NCBI GenBank assembly: GCA_015680905.1
Contig: CM027378.1
Location: 82,985,501-83,049,500 of the forward strand
DNA length: 64,000 nt
Direction of reading: 5' to 3'
Source of the DNA: Coptis chinensis
Taxonomy: Eukaryota > Streptophyta > Magnoliopsida > Ranunculales > Ranunculaceae
Made by a program: the position numbers and the translations under genes. Positions 8,001 to 60,085 of this stretch are shown here, in pieces (within the stretch, counting starts at the first letter, position 1; the number at the start of each line of letters is the position of its first letter). The notes below the pieces were generated by a model. It saw nothing but the letters and a program-made list of their open reading frames with translations, was not told the DNA's origin and made no database searches.

Positions 8001-11000
8001 ACTCTTGCCTTTACAAGAATATCCTTCTCTTCAGGATGTGATATCCCAGGTATCTCCTCTATATGGCTACAATCATATGCCTCAGTACTATCGCCATCTT
8101 CACATTCACTATTAATTGCTTCAATTGGTTTTTCTGCTGACCCGCCTTTGCAATACACCAAATCTCCTAACATAAGTTGGGCAGTGCCTGCCACAGACAT
8201 AACTTGTCAAGAAAAAAAAATGTAGGAAAAAAAAAAAGGGAAACCCACCCAGGCACTCACTCACAAGCATAAAGTATTTCGTTTTTACATCTTTTTTTTT
8301 TCTTTATCAAGCCAAAAATAAGAGAATCAATCAAACTGAGTGAATCCAAGAGTTCGAAACACGTAGAGAGGTGAAAAATAACCCACCCAAACAGCAAACA
8401 CCCATTCTACTAGAAATATGGGTAGACAGAGTCATGCTCCTAATCATGTTTTCTAGTTAGCCATGACCCCTGCCTTCCTGCACTCATGACAGTCAACGCG
8501 CCTCTGTCACACCATCAAAACACAAACAAATAACTTCCCTGTTTCTTTGGCATTTGCCTTCATCACCAATCTCACTTGAAAGGTCTCTGCAAAAGAGCTT
8601 TCTGAAAACACGGATTTTGTCAAGAACTTACTAGCAGATCAAACTATGGCATTTTGAATTTCAAAAACTAAAAAGTAAAGCAAATTTTCTCCCCTCAAAA
8701 TGATCACCAAATCTCACATCCACTAGGTGCTTTGCTTTTTGCCTCTGTTTTCGTTACCCTCCCACATGCTATGGAATTACACACCATGCCACTGAACCTA
8801 AACCAACATAAACCAATCGTGCGAGATTCAAGAAAAGTACCACCTCGTCTATGTCGTTCACAACCGTTCAATATGTGTCACAGAAATTCTGGTTTTTCCG
8901 GCTTTCCGCTTGAAAATTTGTGTAATTTATAGGATTTATCAAGTCCTAGATCCACCATGACCTCTATTGAAAGTTTTAAAATAATCTGATTATTTATTTC
9001 ACAGATACCCACTTCTAAGTGAGTTGCTGCCCAGTTGGTTCCTCATTCACTTAGAAGGACTGCAGTTCTGCAAGTAACATTAAACAAAGTTTTTAATGGC
9101 TAAAATGTTCATTGTATAATCACCAAGATGACCATATTTTTGTCCATTTTATGAAGCTTACTTCTCATTCTTAGGTTACATGATTCATATAAATTATCCC
9201 CAATTTCTAGATAGAAAGAAATGGTTTAAGAGGTTTGCACAGGACTGTTATACACACAAGCATGCATGTGTGCAGAGACTCAGAGCTGAGCCAAGCCAGC
9301 CTACCCACAAATGGGCACCAGGATTAATCCACACTAACCCTTTAACTAGAATCAAGTCACTCTTTTTAATTTTCTTTTCGGTTGGTAAAGCGAAGTTGTA
9401 TAAAAATAAGTAACAGCAGGTATAGGATGGGAAGAGACATCCTACAATACTATAAACAAAAGCCAAAATAAGAACTGAACAAGAAAAAAGCAAAAGCAAC
9501 TACAAAGCAGCTCCAAGAGTATAACTACAAACTCAAACAGGATCTGCCAACCGGATATGAATCTCCTGAATGGTGTGTCCCTCCACTCCTCTAATACATC
9601 CGACCAAAGAAAAATCAAACCTTTGATCGAGATGATAGCCTCCATGGAATAGTCTCTGTCATCAAAGCGTCTACCTTTTCTCTCCACCCAAAGACCACAC
9701 TCATTCTCCATTTATCTAGCGCAAAGCCACTCCATTTCCCATGTTAAACACGTGACCTAACCTAAGTCAGACACATTTGACATTACGTAGTTAGTGTATC
9801 AAGTGGATCAATATGTTTGCCATATTGTAAGCCATTAGGACCACACCTGTGTCTATATCTACTGAGAATGCAAAAACCATCTGAGATCCAGAGCCGATCC
9901 TTACAAAGATTCTCTCCTACATGCTCTAAACAGTGTTCTAAAAAACGGCCTAGGCGGCCGTCTAGGCGGTGCCTAGCCGTACTGATTTTCACCCTAAACG
10001 GTTGATAAAACGGTGGACCGATTAATCGGGACTAGGCGGTGGATTAATCGGCCTAGGCGGTCTAGGCGGGCTGGACGGTTTATAAGGTCTAGTTTGTTTT
10101 TTGGGCCCAATTTGTTACAATCCCAATTAAAAAAACAATCGGTCTCTCTGGGCTTAAGTTAAAAAAAAGCTTAAGTTAAAAAAAAGCCTGATAGGGCTTA
10201 GAAACAATCGGTCTCTCTTCTTCAACAAACAAACAATCGGTCTCTCTGGTCTCTCTGGTCTCTCTTCTTCAACAAACAATCGGTCTCTCTTCAACAAACA
10301 ATCAGCTGCTCTTCTTCTTCTTCTCGGTATGTATTTCTTCTCTCCAATTCTGCTCTCTTTTTTTCTTCTCTCCAGCAACCAAAATAAATTAAGTTGTAGT
10401 GAGTGTGAAAGAATCCATCTTTAATATTTTAATGGGAATTTCAAAAAGTTGGAAATCATCAAGTCTTAAATGAGGGGAAGAAGTCTTAAACGTTGACCCG
10501 TTTTTCCATTTTGTTTCGCCTTTTCAATTCCAACAACTTTGATATCAAGCTAAGTCTTGAGGTCTTGCCAGGTATCAAATAACCTGTTCTATCCAGAGAA
10601 AAAAAAAATTAATTATACATATATATTTAAATAATTAATTAATTAATTAATTAATTAAAACCGCCTAGCGCCGCCTAGAAGGCCTAGGCGCTAGGCGCTC
10701 CCCTACCGTCCGACTACCGCCTAGCGTTTTTTAAAACATTGGCTCTAAATATCCTTCAAACCTTACTTCTGATTTATACTTTTTATAAGTAAACTTTATA
10801 ACATCCTCACCTTTCTATGAACATGTTTGCATCTTGACTACCATAAGGACATGAATATAGATACCAAAGCATATATAAGACACAAGATAATAGAAGACGT
10901 GACATAAGATGAAAACTAATGGAGTAACATATTTGAAGCAGGAATACCATACATTTAGAAAAGCATTAAAATGAATTAAGAACAAACTATACATGTTTGC

Positions 11001-14000
11001 ACCAACGGACACACATAAGAGGGAGCACAAACCTTGTCTTTGCACTCTAGCACTTGCTGCATGGTTCCATAAGTAACTTTGGTAACTATGCACATACCTG
11101 TACATGGAAATACCAAATGCTGCAAATTAAGGTCTTATTGATTCAATAAACACAATTTGTACGAATAATGAAAAATAAATCTCCCTTGTTTGGAAACTAA
11201 AATATCGCAAAGGGAAGAAATCTTATTTTCCTTTTCCACAAAGGTAAAAGATAAAAAACCAAAGACCAACAAAAGAAATCTCATGGATAGTCTACGAATT
11301 GGCAGTAAATAGCACAGTTTTTTTTTTTTTTCGGGGACAATTGAAACAAAAACCCATCCGACGTGGAGGTGGTAAAGTAGTATAGGTGCATAACACAAAA
11401 CAAAAAAGCTTATCAAGTTCTGACTTTTATTGATAAAAAGTTCAACACTCGAATTACAATCTATTTCATACTCCATGACTCTTTGAATATACCACTTACA
11501 TCATTCTCAGTGTCCTGGGTATTGCCTTCAGGGCCTGCAAATAGTTCCCAGGGCATTTCTTCAAGCATTGGAGCTGAGAATGAAATAAAATAAGAAAGCA
11601 AATTGATAACACTAATAACAGGTTGCAGGGGTTCAGCATAAAAAAAAAATGACGAGCATGAACAATTAGGAAGTATTGAATGAGTAGGAAGCACAAAAAT
11701 ATACATCAAAGAGAAAAATGACAAGAGGAAGCACAAAAATATACATCAAAGAGAAAAATGACAAGAATCTTACGATGGCCCTTTCAGCAACCAGATATCG
11801 AGGTAACCGGCTTAGCATTCCATCAATATCACCAGTTTCCTTGTAATACTCACGTGCCTCTCTGATGATATCACGCTGTTCTAAAGGTTAAGTAGCAAAA
11901 AGCAGGAGTTCCACTTTTCTTAATATTAACAAATTTTCCAGTATTTTGATAATGCATGAGAACTGTAAAGAATTAGCCCCTTCCATCTGACGCAACAAAA
12001 ATAATAAAGTGTTCATTTATATATATAAAAAAAAAAAAAAAAACCTTCCACATTATAACAACAGTAAAAGGATATCTCCTTCCCTCGGATCAAGAAACAA
12101 ATTGATGGCAGTTTTCCATTCTCCCTTAAGTAATGCCACTCCAATGAGGTGAGTTGGCACCGAACCACTTCCAAAACGCTGAAACTCATAACATTTTATT
12201 AGTTAATAATAAGCAACCATAAGATTCTGGTTAAATGCATGCAACAGACTCACCTGCAGACCAAAGTAATTGATAAACCCATTCCTTCCCAAGGAATCTG
12301 CAGCCGACTTTATGATGTCCTCCGAATCTGAAACAACTCCTCTGTGAACATATGTAAGTACATAACATGCCGATTTACTAGCTAAAAGAAAATGGAAATT
12401 TTGTAAAAGGTGAACAAACATGTAAAAACTATAGGTTTCACCTCAAAGTAATTGTGAATCGATTTCCTTCGAGTTGTCCGAGAAGAATCCCTTCTTTGAC
12501 ATAACTGAATCAGATGAAACTTAAGCATCATGGAAATGTAGTAAAATAACAAACTAAGAACGTATATCATGCAGACCTTACCAAAAGTTTCCAACTTTAA
12601 TACCAATTAGTCTGTCGTTGAGGGCAGCCAGTCTTTTCGAGTGTTGCTTGAAAACAGTTACCTGCAAAAAGCAAGTAATTCCATGAACAACCTATCCCCA
12701 AATTTACTCAGAGCACTAATATAGAAAAGACTGCCTTAAATCACTCTCTTCATGGAAATGACCTGGATTTATGCAATTAAATGCCTATGTAAGGTGGAAT
12801 GACTGTATTGACGTAAAAAGGTAGGTGGTGATTGTGATCAATCTAGCACTCTAGATGAAATTAAAATAAACCCTCCCAACTACGATTTCAAATGGCACCT
12901 TTGTAATAAGTTACTAAAGATGGACCACATACATGTGAAGGAATGAAACTTCCATTTTTGTCCTCGCATATGGTCTTGTTAAAAGCTTCCTAGCTCCCTT
13001 TAACATGATGCCAATTTTGATATTTACTTTTTCTTTTTCTTTTTCTTTTTAATGTTCAAATATTTCAAACAATAGCAAAAAAACTGGAGGGAGAAGGCAC
13101 GTGGTATGATTGTAAGAGTTTGTTTTAAAGGAGAAACTGTTCATTGGAGTGTTGAAAGTGCCCAAGGTCTTGGTATCAAATCCCACCTTCACTGTGGAAA
13201 GGGTTCTCTTTAAGGGTTTAGGCAAATAAAGTTGTAAATATCAAAAAGTAAATGCACAAGACAAAGGAAAGAGTGAAGTGGGTTGCGTGTCAAAGGCAGA
13301 GAAAGTGAGAGTTCACTTGGACAGGTAATTACAGGGGTGCTAAAGATGCCATTGAAGGCCTGTTGTACATCAATTATTACTTTGATTAATTGAAAATAAA
13401 TTATGGCCGGTTAGTGCCTAACCCCAGCTTGCTTCTTGCCAAAAAATATATTTTTAGTTCGTGTCAAAAGTACGTAAAGTATAGTATTGAAGACACATGA
13501 AGCAGCGACAAATAGCAGCAGCACATATGAATAAGCATATAAAAATGTAAAATACTAAGCTCAATGCATTTGAGCCGGCTAAGAACAACAAAGGATCCAA
13601 GGGCATGGAAAAAGAATGAGAAGAAAGTTTTACCCTTTGAGTTGATACAGAACGCTTATCTTTTGTACCCGAAAATCCAAATGACCGTTGCTGCCCAAGA
13701 GAACTTAACATTATCAGTCAAATGAGTAGACATTTTGATAGTACTAGATGAGAAATTTCAAGCAAGGAATTAAAAAGAAGTTGAACCAAAGTGACTTTCA
13801 CTTTTTTTTCAGAAACAGAAATATTGCCTAAAATGTAACTTCTGTAAAATGTTCTGACTGATTAATGAGAATAAACTAGGAAGTTTACTTTAAATTCATT
13901 AAAAAAAAACAGAAACATGACAATTTACATGTATAATTGGCACAACTACGTACCTGGATGCCAAGCATCTTTGCTATCAGTCCCAAAGCCTCTTGGGTGT

Positions 14001-16102
14001 CCTTATTCTCCTTATAAAGATGAAACCTGAGGAAGTATAAATATTTCTTACCAAACTACCATTCAAAGCAGAAGTGACAGAAATATACTGAGATCATGTT
14101 AACATGGCCCCTTCTCTTAGGAGTCTTTGAATCAATTACTTGAGCCGTCTATAAGAAATTAGTAATACAACACAAAGAACTTTTGCTTTCATGTAGTAAC
14201 AACATTAATTTTGTTTTACTCACATACTAAACAACATTAAACATTTTATTTAGGTATGTCTTCTTTATTAAATCAATTCTCTGTGTAAAATAAGCAACCA
14301 AGTTCCAGAGAGAGAATAACTTAATATACGAATGCAATAAGGTTTCTGCAAAGATAATTTTTCTGGATAACTCTCTTTAACTAAAAAAATCGATGTGAAA
14401 AGAGAAATATATAATTGTAATTATTAATTAGTATTATCTAATATAACAGGTGTGATAGTGTTGGAGAGTTTACCAGAAGTTAGACAAGAGGAACCTCATA
14501 AGAGTGAGACACAAATCTTATAAAAGTGTTTCAGTAACTTCCTGACATGGGGCATAACATCGTGTCTAACACAAGAACCCTAAAAATACATTCTTCCTCT
14601 TCTATTAAGTTTTAAACCTAGTCTCTGCCAAAAGAACCTTTAATTAAACCTAGTCTCTGCCGAAATAAAAGAATACGCTCTCCAACAGGAATTAGCTTTT
14701 GAAACTAATCTGAATAATAAGAATGATTTCGAAGAGTGCCTTTCTTCAGGGGTGATAGAACATGGTGCTCGTGTATATGTAAAATGTACTTCTATCCAAG
14801 GATACAGTATGGACTGGAACACCACACAGTTTACTTTCCAAATTTACATACAGTATAAGACACATAATTGTTCCCTTCATTATTGATAGCCACACATATT
14901 TGTGGCCTTGCACATGTTTAACCAACATACAAACTTATATGGACAGTATACTGGGAAAAATACGTAGTAGAACAAGTTCTTGCACAATGACATGTTTTAT
15001 CCAACTAAAAAAAATTCATATAGCATTTCAGAAAACTAAAATGAACGGAATGTAACAAAATAACAACAGAAAGATAGTATTTTATTGGAATTGATATCTC
15101 GTAGCTGTATTCCTGTGTCTTAAACCAACTTTGATATCTAGTACCCTATCTTGGACAATTTAGGCAACTGATACAAGATAATACACCAAAAAACCTAGTA
15201 CATACGACAAAGGGAGAGACAAGGAAAGTACGTTCACCTAAGGAACTTCCCAACATTCTCAGGCCAATCATCTGAACCTCTGCTATCAAAGGGCTTATCA
15301 CCCCTTTCTTTCCGTTTTCTCGAGTTCCTCCCCTTTCCATTCCCTGAATTCAACCTCACTCTAACGCATTTAGAAGCCGTATCAGGTCCATCGACCGTGT
15401 CCGTGACAAGGAACTTCAATCTCTCCTTGAAAAAATTATGAACAGCCTGGAATCTTACATTATTTCAGGGGGAAAAAAAACCCAGTAGCATACAAAAATA
15501 AAACACCACTAACAGGTTGAATTAAATACTTGCCGTTCGATGGGTTTTATCAGAATCCGGAGAAAGTACAATAGGAGATGCATCATCTGTACCACCCGAC
15601 GTTACTTTATCAATTAAAGCTTTCAACAATTCAGCATCCGTATCACCCGCAAGCGATCTAAATGATTCAATTTCAGACGAATAAGACAGTTTCGTCTCCT
15701 CACTTTTCTTCTCCTCTACACTCTAACAAACAAATTAAACAACACAAGTTTTATCTATCAGCATATAATTACATTAAAAAAAAAATGTATACACATTTCC
15801 CAAGCAAAATTAGCCCAGTAATAACCCAAATTACCTCAAGGGGTGCATCTAAACAAGTCAAATGAACAACCTTTCCATCACAATCAACTTCATTCACTAT
15901 GAAATCAGCATACCTACAAAAAAAAAAAAAAAAAAAAAAAATCACCCGAAAGATTAATAAAACAAAAAACCGCAAAATTTCAAGTAAAGTAAGTGCGAAA
16001 TATTGAAATTGAATTGTGCCTTTGTTTTAAAATGCCACGAAATCCAGGAAGCTTAGAAATGTAATATTGAATTCCAACGTCTGATTCTTCTAGGGTTTTC
16101 AT
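5035..16102 (-). CDS. PUS7: Multisubstrate pseudouridine synthase 7 (TruD/PUS7 family), 20 exons, complete
   Basis: The product isomerises uridine to pseudouridine in RNA (family knowledge: tRNA and mRNA; bacterial TruD makes tRNA U13). Exons, minus strand, in transcript order: 16102-16020, 15913-15835, 15722-15534, 15446-15238, 14026-13954, 13690-13634, 12661-12582, 12504-12442, 12341-12254, 12178-12076, 11877-11774, 11573-11500, 11097-11033, 8187-8009, 7519-7452, 7359-7299, 7006-6969, 6876-6808, 6490-6154, 5064-5035. All phases agree, giving 682 codons plus TGA. Landmarks: GFRGILKQRYADFIVNEVD (residues 20-40); catalytic motif FGFSGTKDKRSVSTQR with the family nucleophile Asp near residue 222; NYFGLQRFGSGSVPTH (about 302-317); SGGYRRVFQKP; and the C-terminal FTLPASCYATMAIREL. 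The chosen ATG at 16102 begins MKTLEESDVGI; the frame is open further upstream but unlike the family there. Length is close to known PUS7 proteins. Introns include AT-AC and GC-AG types. Introns host a hAT element and LINE scraps. Exon edges were set by eye. Confidence 0.93.
5111..5133. repeat. (TG)n microsatellite
   Basis: An uninterrupted TG run lies about 50 bp from the end of the last PUS7 exon (5064), inside or just past the acceptor side of intron 19 on the opposite reading. It is a likely length polymorphism. Confidence 0.85.
7520..8008 (-). other. Probable GC-AG intron 14 of PUS7
   Basis: The donor AAG|GCAAGA at 8009/8008 joins ...DILVK to AVNEEDLL. A GT six bases upstream (CTT|GTAAAG) also keeps the frame and would drop two residues (VK). 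The GC donor has the better consensus, so both isoforms are possible. Confidence 0.6.
9412..9715 (-). mobile_element. LINE 3'-end remnant in PUS7 intron 13
   Basis: The minus-strand frame contains CGLWVERKGRRFDDRDYSMEAI, the kind of sequence found at the C-terminal end of plant LINE reverse transcriptases (the W...ERN.R.F region). Nothing further upstream of the element is recognisable. A short 5'-truncated scrap is the simplest reading; the match is by eye only. Confidence 0.5.
9931..10741. mobile_element. hAT-type non-autonomous element (811 bp) in PUS7 intron 13
   Basis: The left end CAGTGTTCTAAAAAACGGCC pairs with the right end, whose complement begins CAATGTTTTAAAAAACGC. It is flanked by an exact 8-bp duplication, GCTCTAAA (9923-9930 and 10742-10749). 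The sub-terminal regions are strings of CCTAGGCGG-like motifs. The centre holds repeats of caatcggtctctct, CTT runs and an AATT microsatellite near 10630-10658. No transposase frame remains. The CARTG ends and 8-bp duplication indicate hAT. Confidence 0.88.
11688..11766. repeat. 40-bp tandem duplication beside a PUS7 splice donor
   Basis: A unit beginning gaagcacaaaaatatacatc occurs twice back to back with no visible mismatch over 39-40 bases. It lies in intron 11, immediately next to the donor after exon 11 (exon end 11774), and looks recent. Confidence 0.85.
11878..12075 (-). other. U12-type AT-AC intron of PUS7 (intron 10)
   Basis: The intron starts ATATCCTTTT at 12075 on the minus strand, the minor-spliceosome donor consensus. 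It ends with a branch-like TACTTAAC followed by CTTTAGAAC, with AC as the last two bases at 11879-11878. Splicing here gives ...DPREGERDIIREA, which matches the family. An AG three bases upstream would also stay in frame (GEQRD), but the donor is not GT and the branch-to-end spacing of about 10 nt suits U12 splicing. Confidence 0.85.
15447..15533 (-). other. GC-AG intron 3 of PUS7
   Basis: The donor ACG|GCAAGT at 15534/15533 is the classic strong GC-type site. It joins ...SDKTHRT in phase to AVHNFFKERLKF. The nearby GT, four bases further on within GCAAGT, would shift the frame. Confidence 0.85.
15914..16019 (-). other. GC-AG intron 1 of PUS7
   Basis: Exon 1 ends AAACAAAG and the intron begins GCACAA at 16019. 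Only this join gives KQRYADFIV, the conserved family sequence; no usable GT lies near. The donor is weak for a GC type (+3 to +5 not AGT), so a base change from GT is possible. Confidence 0.7.
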
Positions 16103-60013: not shown

Positions 60014-60085
60014 TGTGGCTGCTGGGATTCGAGCCCAGGTCTCCACGGCCACAACGTGGAATTCTCACCACTAAACTACAGCCAC
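60014..60085 (-). tRNA. trnH-GUG: tRNA-His (anticodon GTG)
   Basis: On the minus strand it starts GTGGCTGTAGTTTAGTGG and ends CAGCAGCCACA. The acceptor stem GTGGCTG/CAGCCAC pairs fully. The anticodon arm CCACG-TTGTGGC-CGTGG gives anticodon GTG. The T arm contains GGGCTCGAATCCC (internal B box), and the D arm TAGTTTAGTGG serves as the A box. 72 nt, no intron, and no encoded CCA, as expected for a nuclear gene. A TTTT run follows about 7 nt downstream as a Pol III terminator. Confidence 0.96.

Follow-up and report, generated by a model that had tools for sequence, protein, structure and literature searches.

A very probable U12-type AT-AC intron in an apparently single-copy TruD/PUS7-type pseudouridine synthase gene of Coptis chinensis

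The segment 12075-11878 on the minus strand of the window, the 64-kb stretch of Coptis chinensis DNA analysed here, is very probably a genuine U12-type AT-AC intron, and it is situated in what appears to be the sole TruD/PUS7-type gene of the genome. The evidence established for this reading comprises the sequence elements, the reading frame, the homology of the encoded protein, the U12 and U6atac genes of the same genome, and a matched control intron. The initial annotation had placed an AT-AC intron at 11878..12075 between exons 10 and 11; every base of this placement holds. The donor, the branch-like element and the terminal AC are all found there on the minus strand, and the intron is number 10 of 19. 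The features discussed below are as follows.

16102-5035, minus strand: predicted TruD/PUS7-type pseudouridine synthase gene, 20 exons, 682 aa, with the ATG at 16102 and the stop codon at 5037-5035
12076..12178, minus strand: exon 10 of the TruD gene
11774..11877, minus strand: exon 11 of the TruD gene
11878..12075, minus strand: intron 10, AT-AC, very probably U12-type, 198 nt, phase 1, between exons 10 and 11
12066..12075, minus strand: U12-type 5' splice site ATATCCTTTT, 8/8 against (A/G)TATCCTT
11887..11895, minus strand: branch-site region CTACTTAAC, 7/9 against TTCCTTRAC, with the core CTTAAC intact
11878..11879, minus strand: 3' splice site AC, the join giving PREGERDII
11881..11882, minus strand: upstream AG, a possible alternative 3' site 3 bases before the AC end, giving GEQRD (one additional residue) and predicted to be minor
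12053..12055, minus strand: first in-frame stop (TAA) met if intron 10 is retained

The coding sequence of the TruD gene, assembled from open frames and splice sites, amounts to 2049 nt in 20 exons, and the 19 introns that separate them comprise 15 with GT-AG termini, 3 with GC-AG and 1 with AT-AC. The assignment of the product to the PUS7-type pseudouridine synthases, made at the outset, is borne out by the Pfam TruD model (PF01142), against which the 682-aa protein scores 278.1 bits at a curated cut-off of 27, and by sequence matches to PDB entries 7mzv (Multisubstrate pseudouridine synthase 7, E 7e-100) and 5kkp (Pseudouridylate synthase 7, E 3e-96). Both of these proteins, which we take to be yeast Pus7 and human PUS7, respectively, are homologous to the TruD protein along most of its length. 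The (F)xGTKD catalytic motif, as defined in PMC8910892, is present as FSGTKD at residues 217-222, with GTKD at residue 219, and is encoded by exon 6 (13690-13634, minus strand). Judged from its sequence, the gene product is a TruD/PUS7-type pseudouridine synthase, and enzymatic activity is predicted. We also note that most plants carry FAGTKD at this position, the serine being found solely in AtTRUD1 among the plants surveyed in PMC8910892.

A search of the 936-Mb genome with a 282-aa probe spanning exons 10-19 returned at least 8 matches; since all 8 fall inside the TruD gene, the gene appears to be single copy. The PF01142 profile gave no match in the same genome despite the presence of the TruD gene, and we read this null result as a limit of the tool because the exons are probably too short for a profile search. 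AtTRUD1 (AT3G04820), the only TruD gene of Arabidopsis according to PMC8910892, is likewise single copy and shares the serine of the FxGTKD motif, with a length of 715 aa as against 682 aa here. The same source describes plant TruD genes as mostly the most intron-rich among PUS genes, which range from 0 to 19 introns. Eight pattern matches in viral contigs included no relatives, and 13 pattern matches in prokaryote genome contigs included two archaeal TruD loci, which were left aside; neither collection yielded a plant locus.

Intron 10 has the layout ATATCCTTTT...CTACTTAAC-CTTTAGAAC and ends in GCTACTTAACCTTTAGAAC. The branch-like element TACTTAAC lies at 11894-11887 on the minus strand, and the putative branch A at about 11888 is located 10 nt before the last intron base. 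This spacing is just under the optimum of 11-13 nt given in PMC3584512 for the distance from branch point to 3' site, and the count used here may be one base off the convention of that source. The exon junction at the AC end reads GGA-G/AG-CGT-GAT (a slash marks the splice point), which encodes GERD. When all 19 introns were scored with one script, intron 10 was the only one with an 8/8 match to the U12 donor RTATCCTT, the other 18 scoring 2-5/8. It was also the only one with a branch site of two or fewer mismatches to TTCCTTRAC at 8-16 nt from its end; 17 introns have at least three mismatches and one has no scorable A in range. As a U2 donor, in turn, the 5' end of intron 10 scores 4/9, below all 18 others (5-9/9). 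As regards the polypyrimidine tract, which U12-type introns lack in distinct form, a short CTTTTT run lies upstream of the branch site. The predicted pairing of the branch site with the U12 RNA of this genome has an energy of -6.8 kcal/mol, compared with -10.6 kcal/mol for the consensus, and the predicted pairing of the 5' site with U6atac is -7.9 kcal/mol, compared with -5.1 kcal/mol for a GT site at 12062.

The motifs by themselves were not accepted as proof of a U12 intron, since such sets arise by chance in 64 kb. RTATCCTTT occurs four times in the window where 1.99 occurrences are expected, and a loose scan for donor, branch site and AC end yields 6 candidates on the two strands, while simulated single strands average 1.97 and reach up to 14. 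In simulation, any one position carries the 8-nt donor with a probability of 1.75e-5, and for an AC end preceded by a branch site of this quality the value is 5e-4. The motifs of intron 10 are significant because the donor and the AC end with its branch site coincide with the junction needed by the reading frame, and their occurrence at that junction is highly non-random.

The joins available between exons 10 and 11 were enumerated for donors at 12135-11990 and acceptors at 11960-11840 with GT-AG, GC-AG, AT-AC, AT-AG and GT-AC termini, which gave a total of 32 in-frame open joins. Seven variants were scored against Pfam TruD, and four of these against seven NCBIfam models. Pfam rates the AT-AC join highest of the seven variants, at 139.7 bits for the TruD segment. 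The AT-AG join between 12073 and 11876 comes close at 137.9 bits, with a U12 donor of just 4/8. Three of the 32 open joins are GT-AG, all with the acceptor at 11862 and with donors of 3-4/9; the third, 12098-11862, omits part of the conserved segment and lay outside the scored set. The other two constitute the most conventional competing explanation, namely a U2-type GT-AG intron of the usual kind whose donor, at 12062 or 12059, is poor and is spliced to 11862, so that DILLL(L)EAR replaces GERDIIREAR. Both joins are open, in frame and of near-identical length, so bridging of this kind is possible on paper. Both the donors and the protein scores nevertheless speak against it: the donors ACT/GTTGTT and GTT/GTTATA reach 4/9 and 3/9, as against 5-9/9 in the 18 other introns of the gene, and the DILLLEAR and DILLLLEAR products score 128.1 and 130.0 bits against Pfam TruD, which is 11.6 and 9.7 bits worse than the AT-AC join. 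The separation recurs with TIGR00094 (110.5 and 114.3 versus 120.3 bits). A GT-AG intron would also offer no account of the 8/8 U12 donor, and we regard it as extremely improbable.

If the U12-type donor of intron 10 is accepted, the position of the 3' end is to be considered. The initial annotation had pointed to the AG three bases before the AC end as the source of a second in-frame isoform, and the AG does lie there, in frame, with GEQRD codable; its product is predicted to be minor, AT-AG pairs being disfavoured (PMC3584512) and the spacing being 7 nt. A stronger version of this idea, in which the U12 intron is spliced mainly to the upstream AG, or to AG and AC at comparable levels, seems unlikely to us; its comparable-use half overlaps with the AT-AC reading given above, and the confidence attached to the one and to the other overlaps there as well. 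At the exon 10/11 junction the 5kkp chain is a residue longer than GERD, in keeping with the AG end, whereas the 7mzv chain aligns with GERD without a gap. The family models are divided. GEQRD is ahead in two of the seven NCBIfam models, by 0.9 bits in NF002160 (62.0 versus 61.1) and by 1.5 bits in NF002156 (38.7 versus 37.2), but GERD leads by 2.1 bits each in TIGR00094 (120.3 versus 118.2) and NF002158 (89.5 versus 87.4). In the remaining three models the two are at most 0.1 bits apart, and with Pfam TruD the GERD product leads by 0.7 bits (139.7 versus 139.0). Protein comparison therefore hardly tells GERD from GEQRD, and the earlier description of GERD as family-like is on its own too weak to decide between the two. 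It is the splicing rules that tell the two apart. AT-AG introns are disfavoured and poorly spliced (PMC3584512), and the AG lies 7 nt from the branch A, in contrast to the 10 nt of the AC end here and of the in-frame AC in both CBP20 introns described below. With an optimum of 11-13 nt (PMC3584512), the AC end should also be favoured by its distance. We expect mainly the GERD product, and a minor share of GEQRD is possible.

The CBP20 gene, whose U12 intron is AT-AC in ten plant species (PMC5932401), served as a control within the same genome. Two CBP20 genes with introns are present, and in both the donor decamer is ATATCCTTTT, identical to that of TruD intron 10. Their branch sites, TTCCCTGAC with one mismatch and TTCCTTAAC with none, are closer to the consensus than that of TruD intron 10, which has two. 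Measured from the branch A, the scan offers several candidate 3' ends, either AC (8 and 10 nt) or AG (14 and 16 nt). We chose the AC 10 nt away because it keeps the frame, with the join DYDPG/RGGYGK in both genes. The CBP20 intron described in PMC5932401 thus resembles TruD intron 10 as a single AT-AC U12 intron in an RNA-processing gene, with the same donor and the same in-frame spacing of 10 nt. It differs in that its conservation across land plants has been published (PMC5932401), while the TruD intron is known here from one genome. A third CBP20-like locus, G000:C3:98288633-98289028, covers the 132-aa probe from end to end at 69% within a single 256-aa open frame; the locus therefore seems to be intronless over the probe, the AT-AC intron included, and it is possibly a retrocopy.

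The host genome also has predicted genes for the minor-spliceosome RNAs U12 and U6atac. Five U12 matches exceed the Rfam cut-off, the best at 98.4 bits, and 15 U6atac matches do so, the best at 94.3 bits. The U12 box GAGTAAGG is present in all five U12 loci, and the 5'-site box AAGGAGAGA of U6atac in 6 of the 8 loci fetched, with no occurrence in the searched range of L015 and L016. Upstream of the six U6atac loci that could be oriented by this box, we looked for RTCCCACATCG, which we take to be the upstream USE motif; it is perfect in three loci, has one mismatch in another, and has no close match in the remaining two.

In the minor-splicing pathway, U11 and then U6atac act at the 5' splice site, and U12 acts at the branch site. 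For intron 10, U11 and subsequently U6atac would pair with AUAUCCUU at the 5' site, and U12 snRNA would pair with the CUACUUAAC region, leaving the A near 11888 as the branch nucleotide. The minor spliceosome would then join exon 10 to exon 11 at AC/AGCG, which would give PREGERDII. The actual splicing of intron 10, like any effect on dose, is inferred. Retention of intron 10 would add seven codons, of which exon 10 contributes part of the first, followed by a stop half way through the protein; the product would be half-length and probably a target of decay. Because retention would end translation in this way, minor splicing should be needed for the complete enzyme, a dependence expected of every gene that carries an intron of this class.

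A regulatory role specific to intron 10, or a loop through snRNA modification, is a speculative possibility. One such proposal is that intron 10 acts as a dose switch, in which the activity of the minor spliceosome sets the level of the synthase and the synthase in turn modifies spliceosomal RNA to close a feedback loop. The early stop upon retention is compatible with it, a role as molecular switches has been suggested for minor introns (PMC3728624), and U2 snRNA is a substrate of yeast Pus7 (PMC8910892). However, dependence of this kind is common to every minor-intron gene, and PMC8910892 describes it as unclear whether the TRUDs of plants do what PUS7 does in yeast and humans; we consider the dose switch very improbable. 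Less credible still is the full scheme, in which the AT-AC intron would couple the sole TruD/PUS7 to the minor spliceosome, the enzyme would modify the branch-recognition regions of snRNA, and the resulting plant feedback loop would be tuned by the tandem AG and AC ends.

The rarity ascribed to AT-AC introns in plants by the initial annotation holds per intron, but within the U12 class such termini are routine: Arabidopsis has a share of 26% and soybean one of 23% (PMC7367187 Table 2); a share of 4.8% is quoted from another study in PMC5932401. Intron 10 is accordingly a further example of a small, well-known class. U12 introns are enriched in information-processing genes, including those of RNA processing (PMC3584512). 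A difference from yeast Pus7 is that S. cerevisiae has no U12-type introns (PMC3584512). In the literature searched, no paper was found that names the TruD gene as bearing a U12 intron: At3g04820 appears in PMC8910892 and PMC2956550, the accessible portion of PMC8910892 has no mention of U12, and the word "pseudouridine" is absent from PMC10639083, PMC2426677 and PMC4892727. Since supplementary tables and the databases U12DB, ERISdb and IAOD lay outside this search, the Arabidopsis orthologue may well be in U12 supplementary tables or databases already. What the locus offers is a clean and checkable intron of a rare class, hosted by an RNA-modification gene that appears to be single copy. Gene finders limited to GT-AG and GC-AG introns would probably get exons 10-11 wrong.

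Several further observations were made in the same window. Three of the 18 other introns of the TruD gene start with GC, namely introns 1, 3 and 14 (16019-15914, 15533-15447 and 8008-7520, minus strand), and their joins are backed by gapless alignment to 7mzv. According to Table 2 of PMC7367187, 1.0-1.6% of the U2-type introns of Arabidopsis and soybean start with GC; against this background, 3 of 18 has a binomial probability of 0.0007-0.003, calculated post hoc. Intron 11 contains, near exon 11, a perfect 40-bp tandem duplication at 11686-11766 that looks recent. An insertion-like stretch of about 810 bp at 9931-10741 in intron 13 has imperfect 17-nt terminal inverted repeats and CCTAGGCGG-type repeats, and looks like a non-autonomous DNA transposon. 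A tRNA gene at 60014-60085 (minus strand) is the sole Rfam match at gathering score in the 64-kb window.
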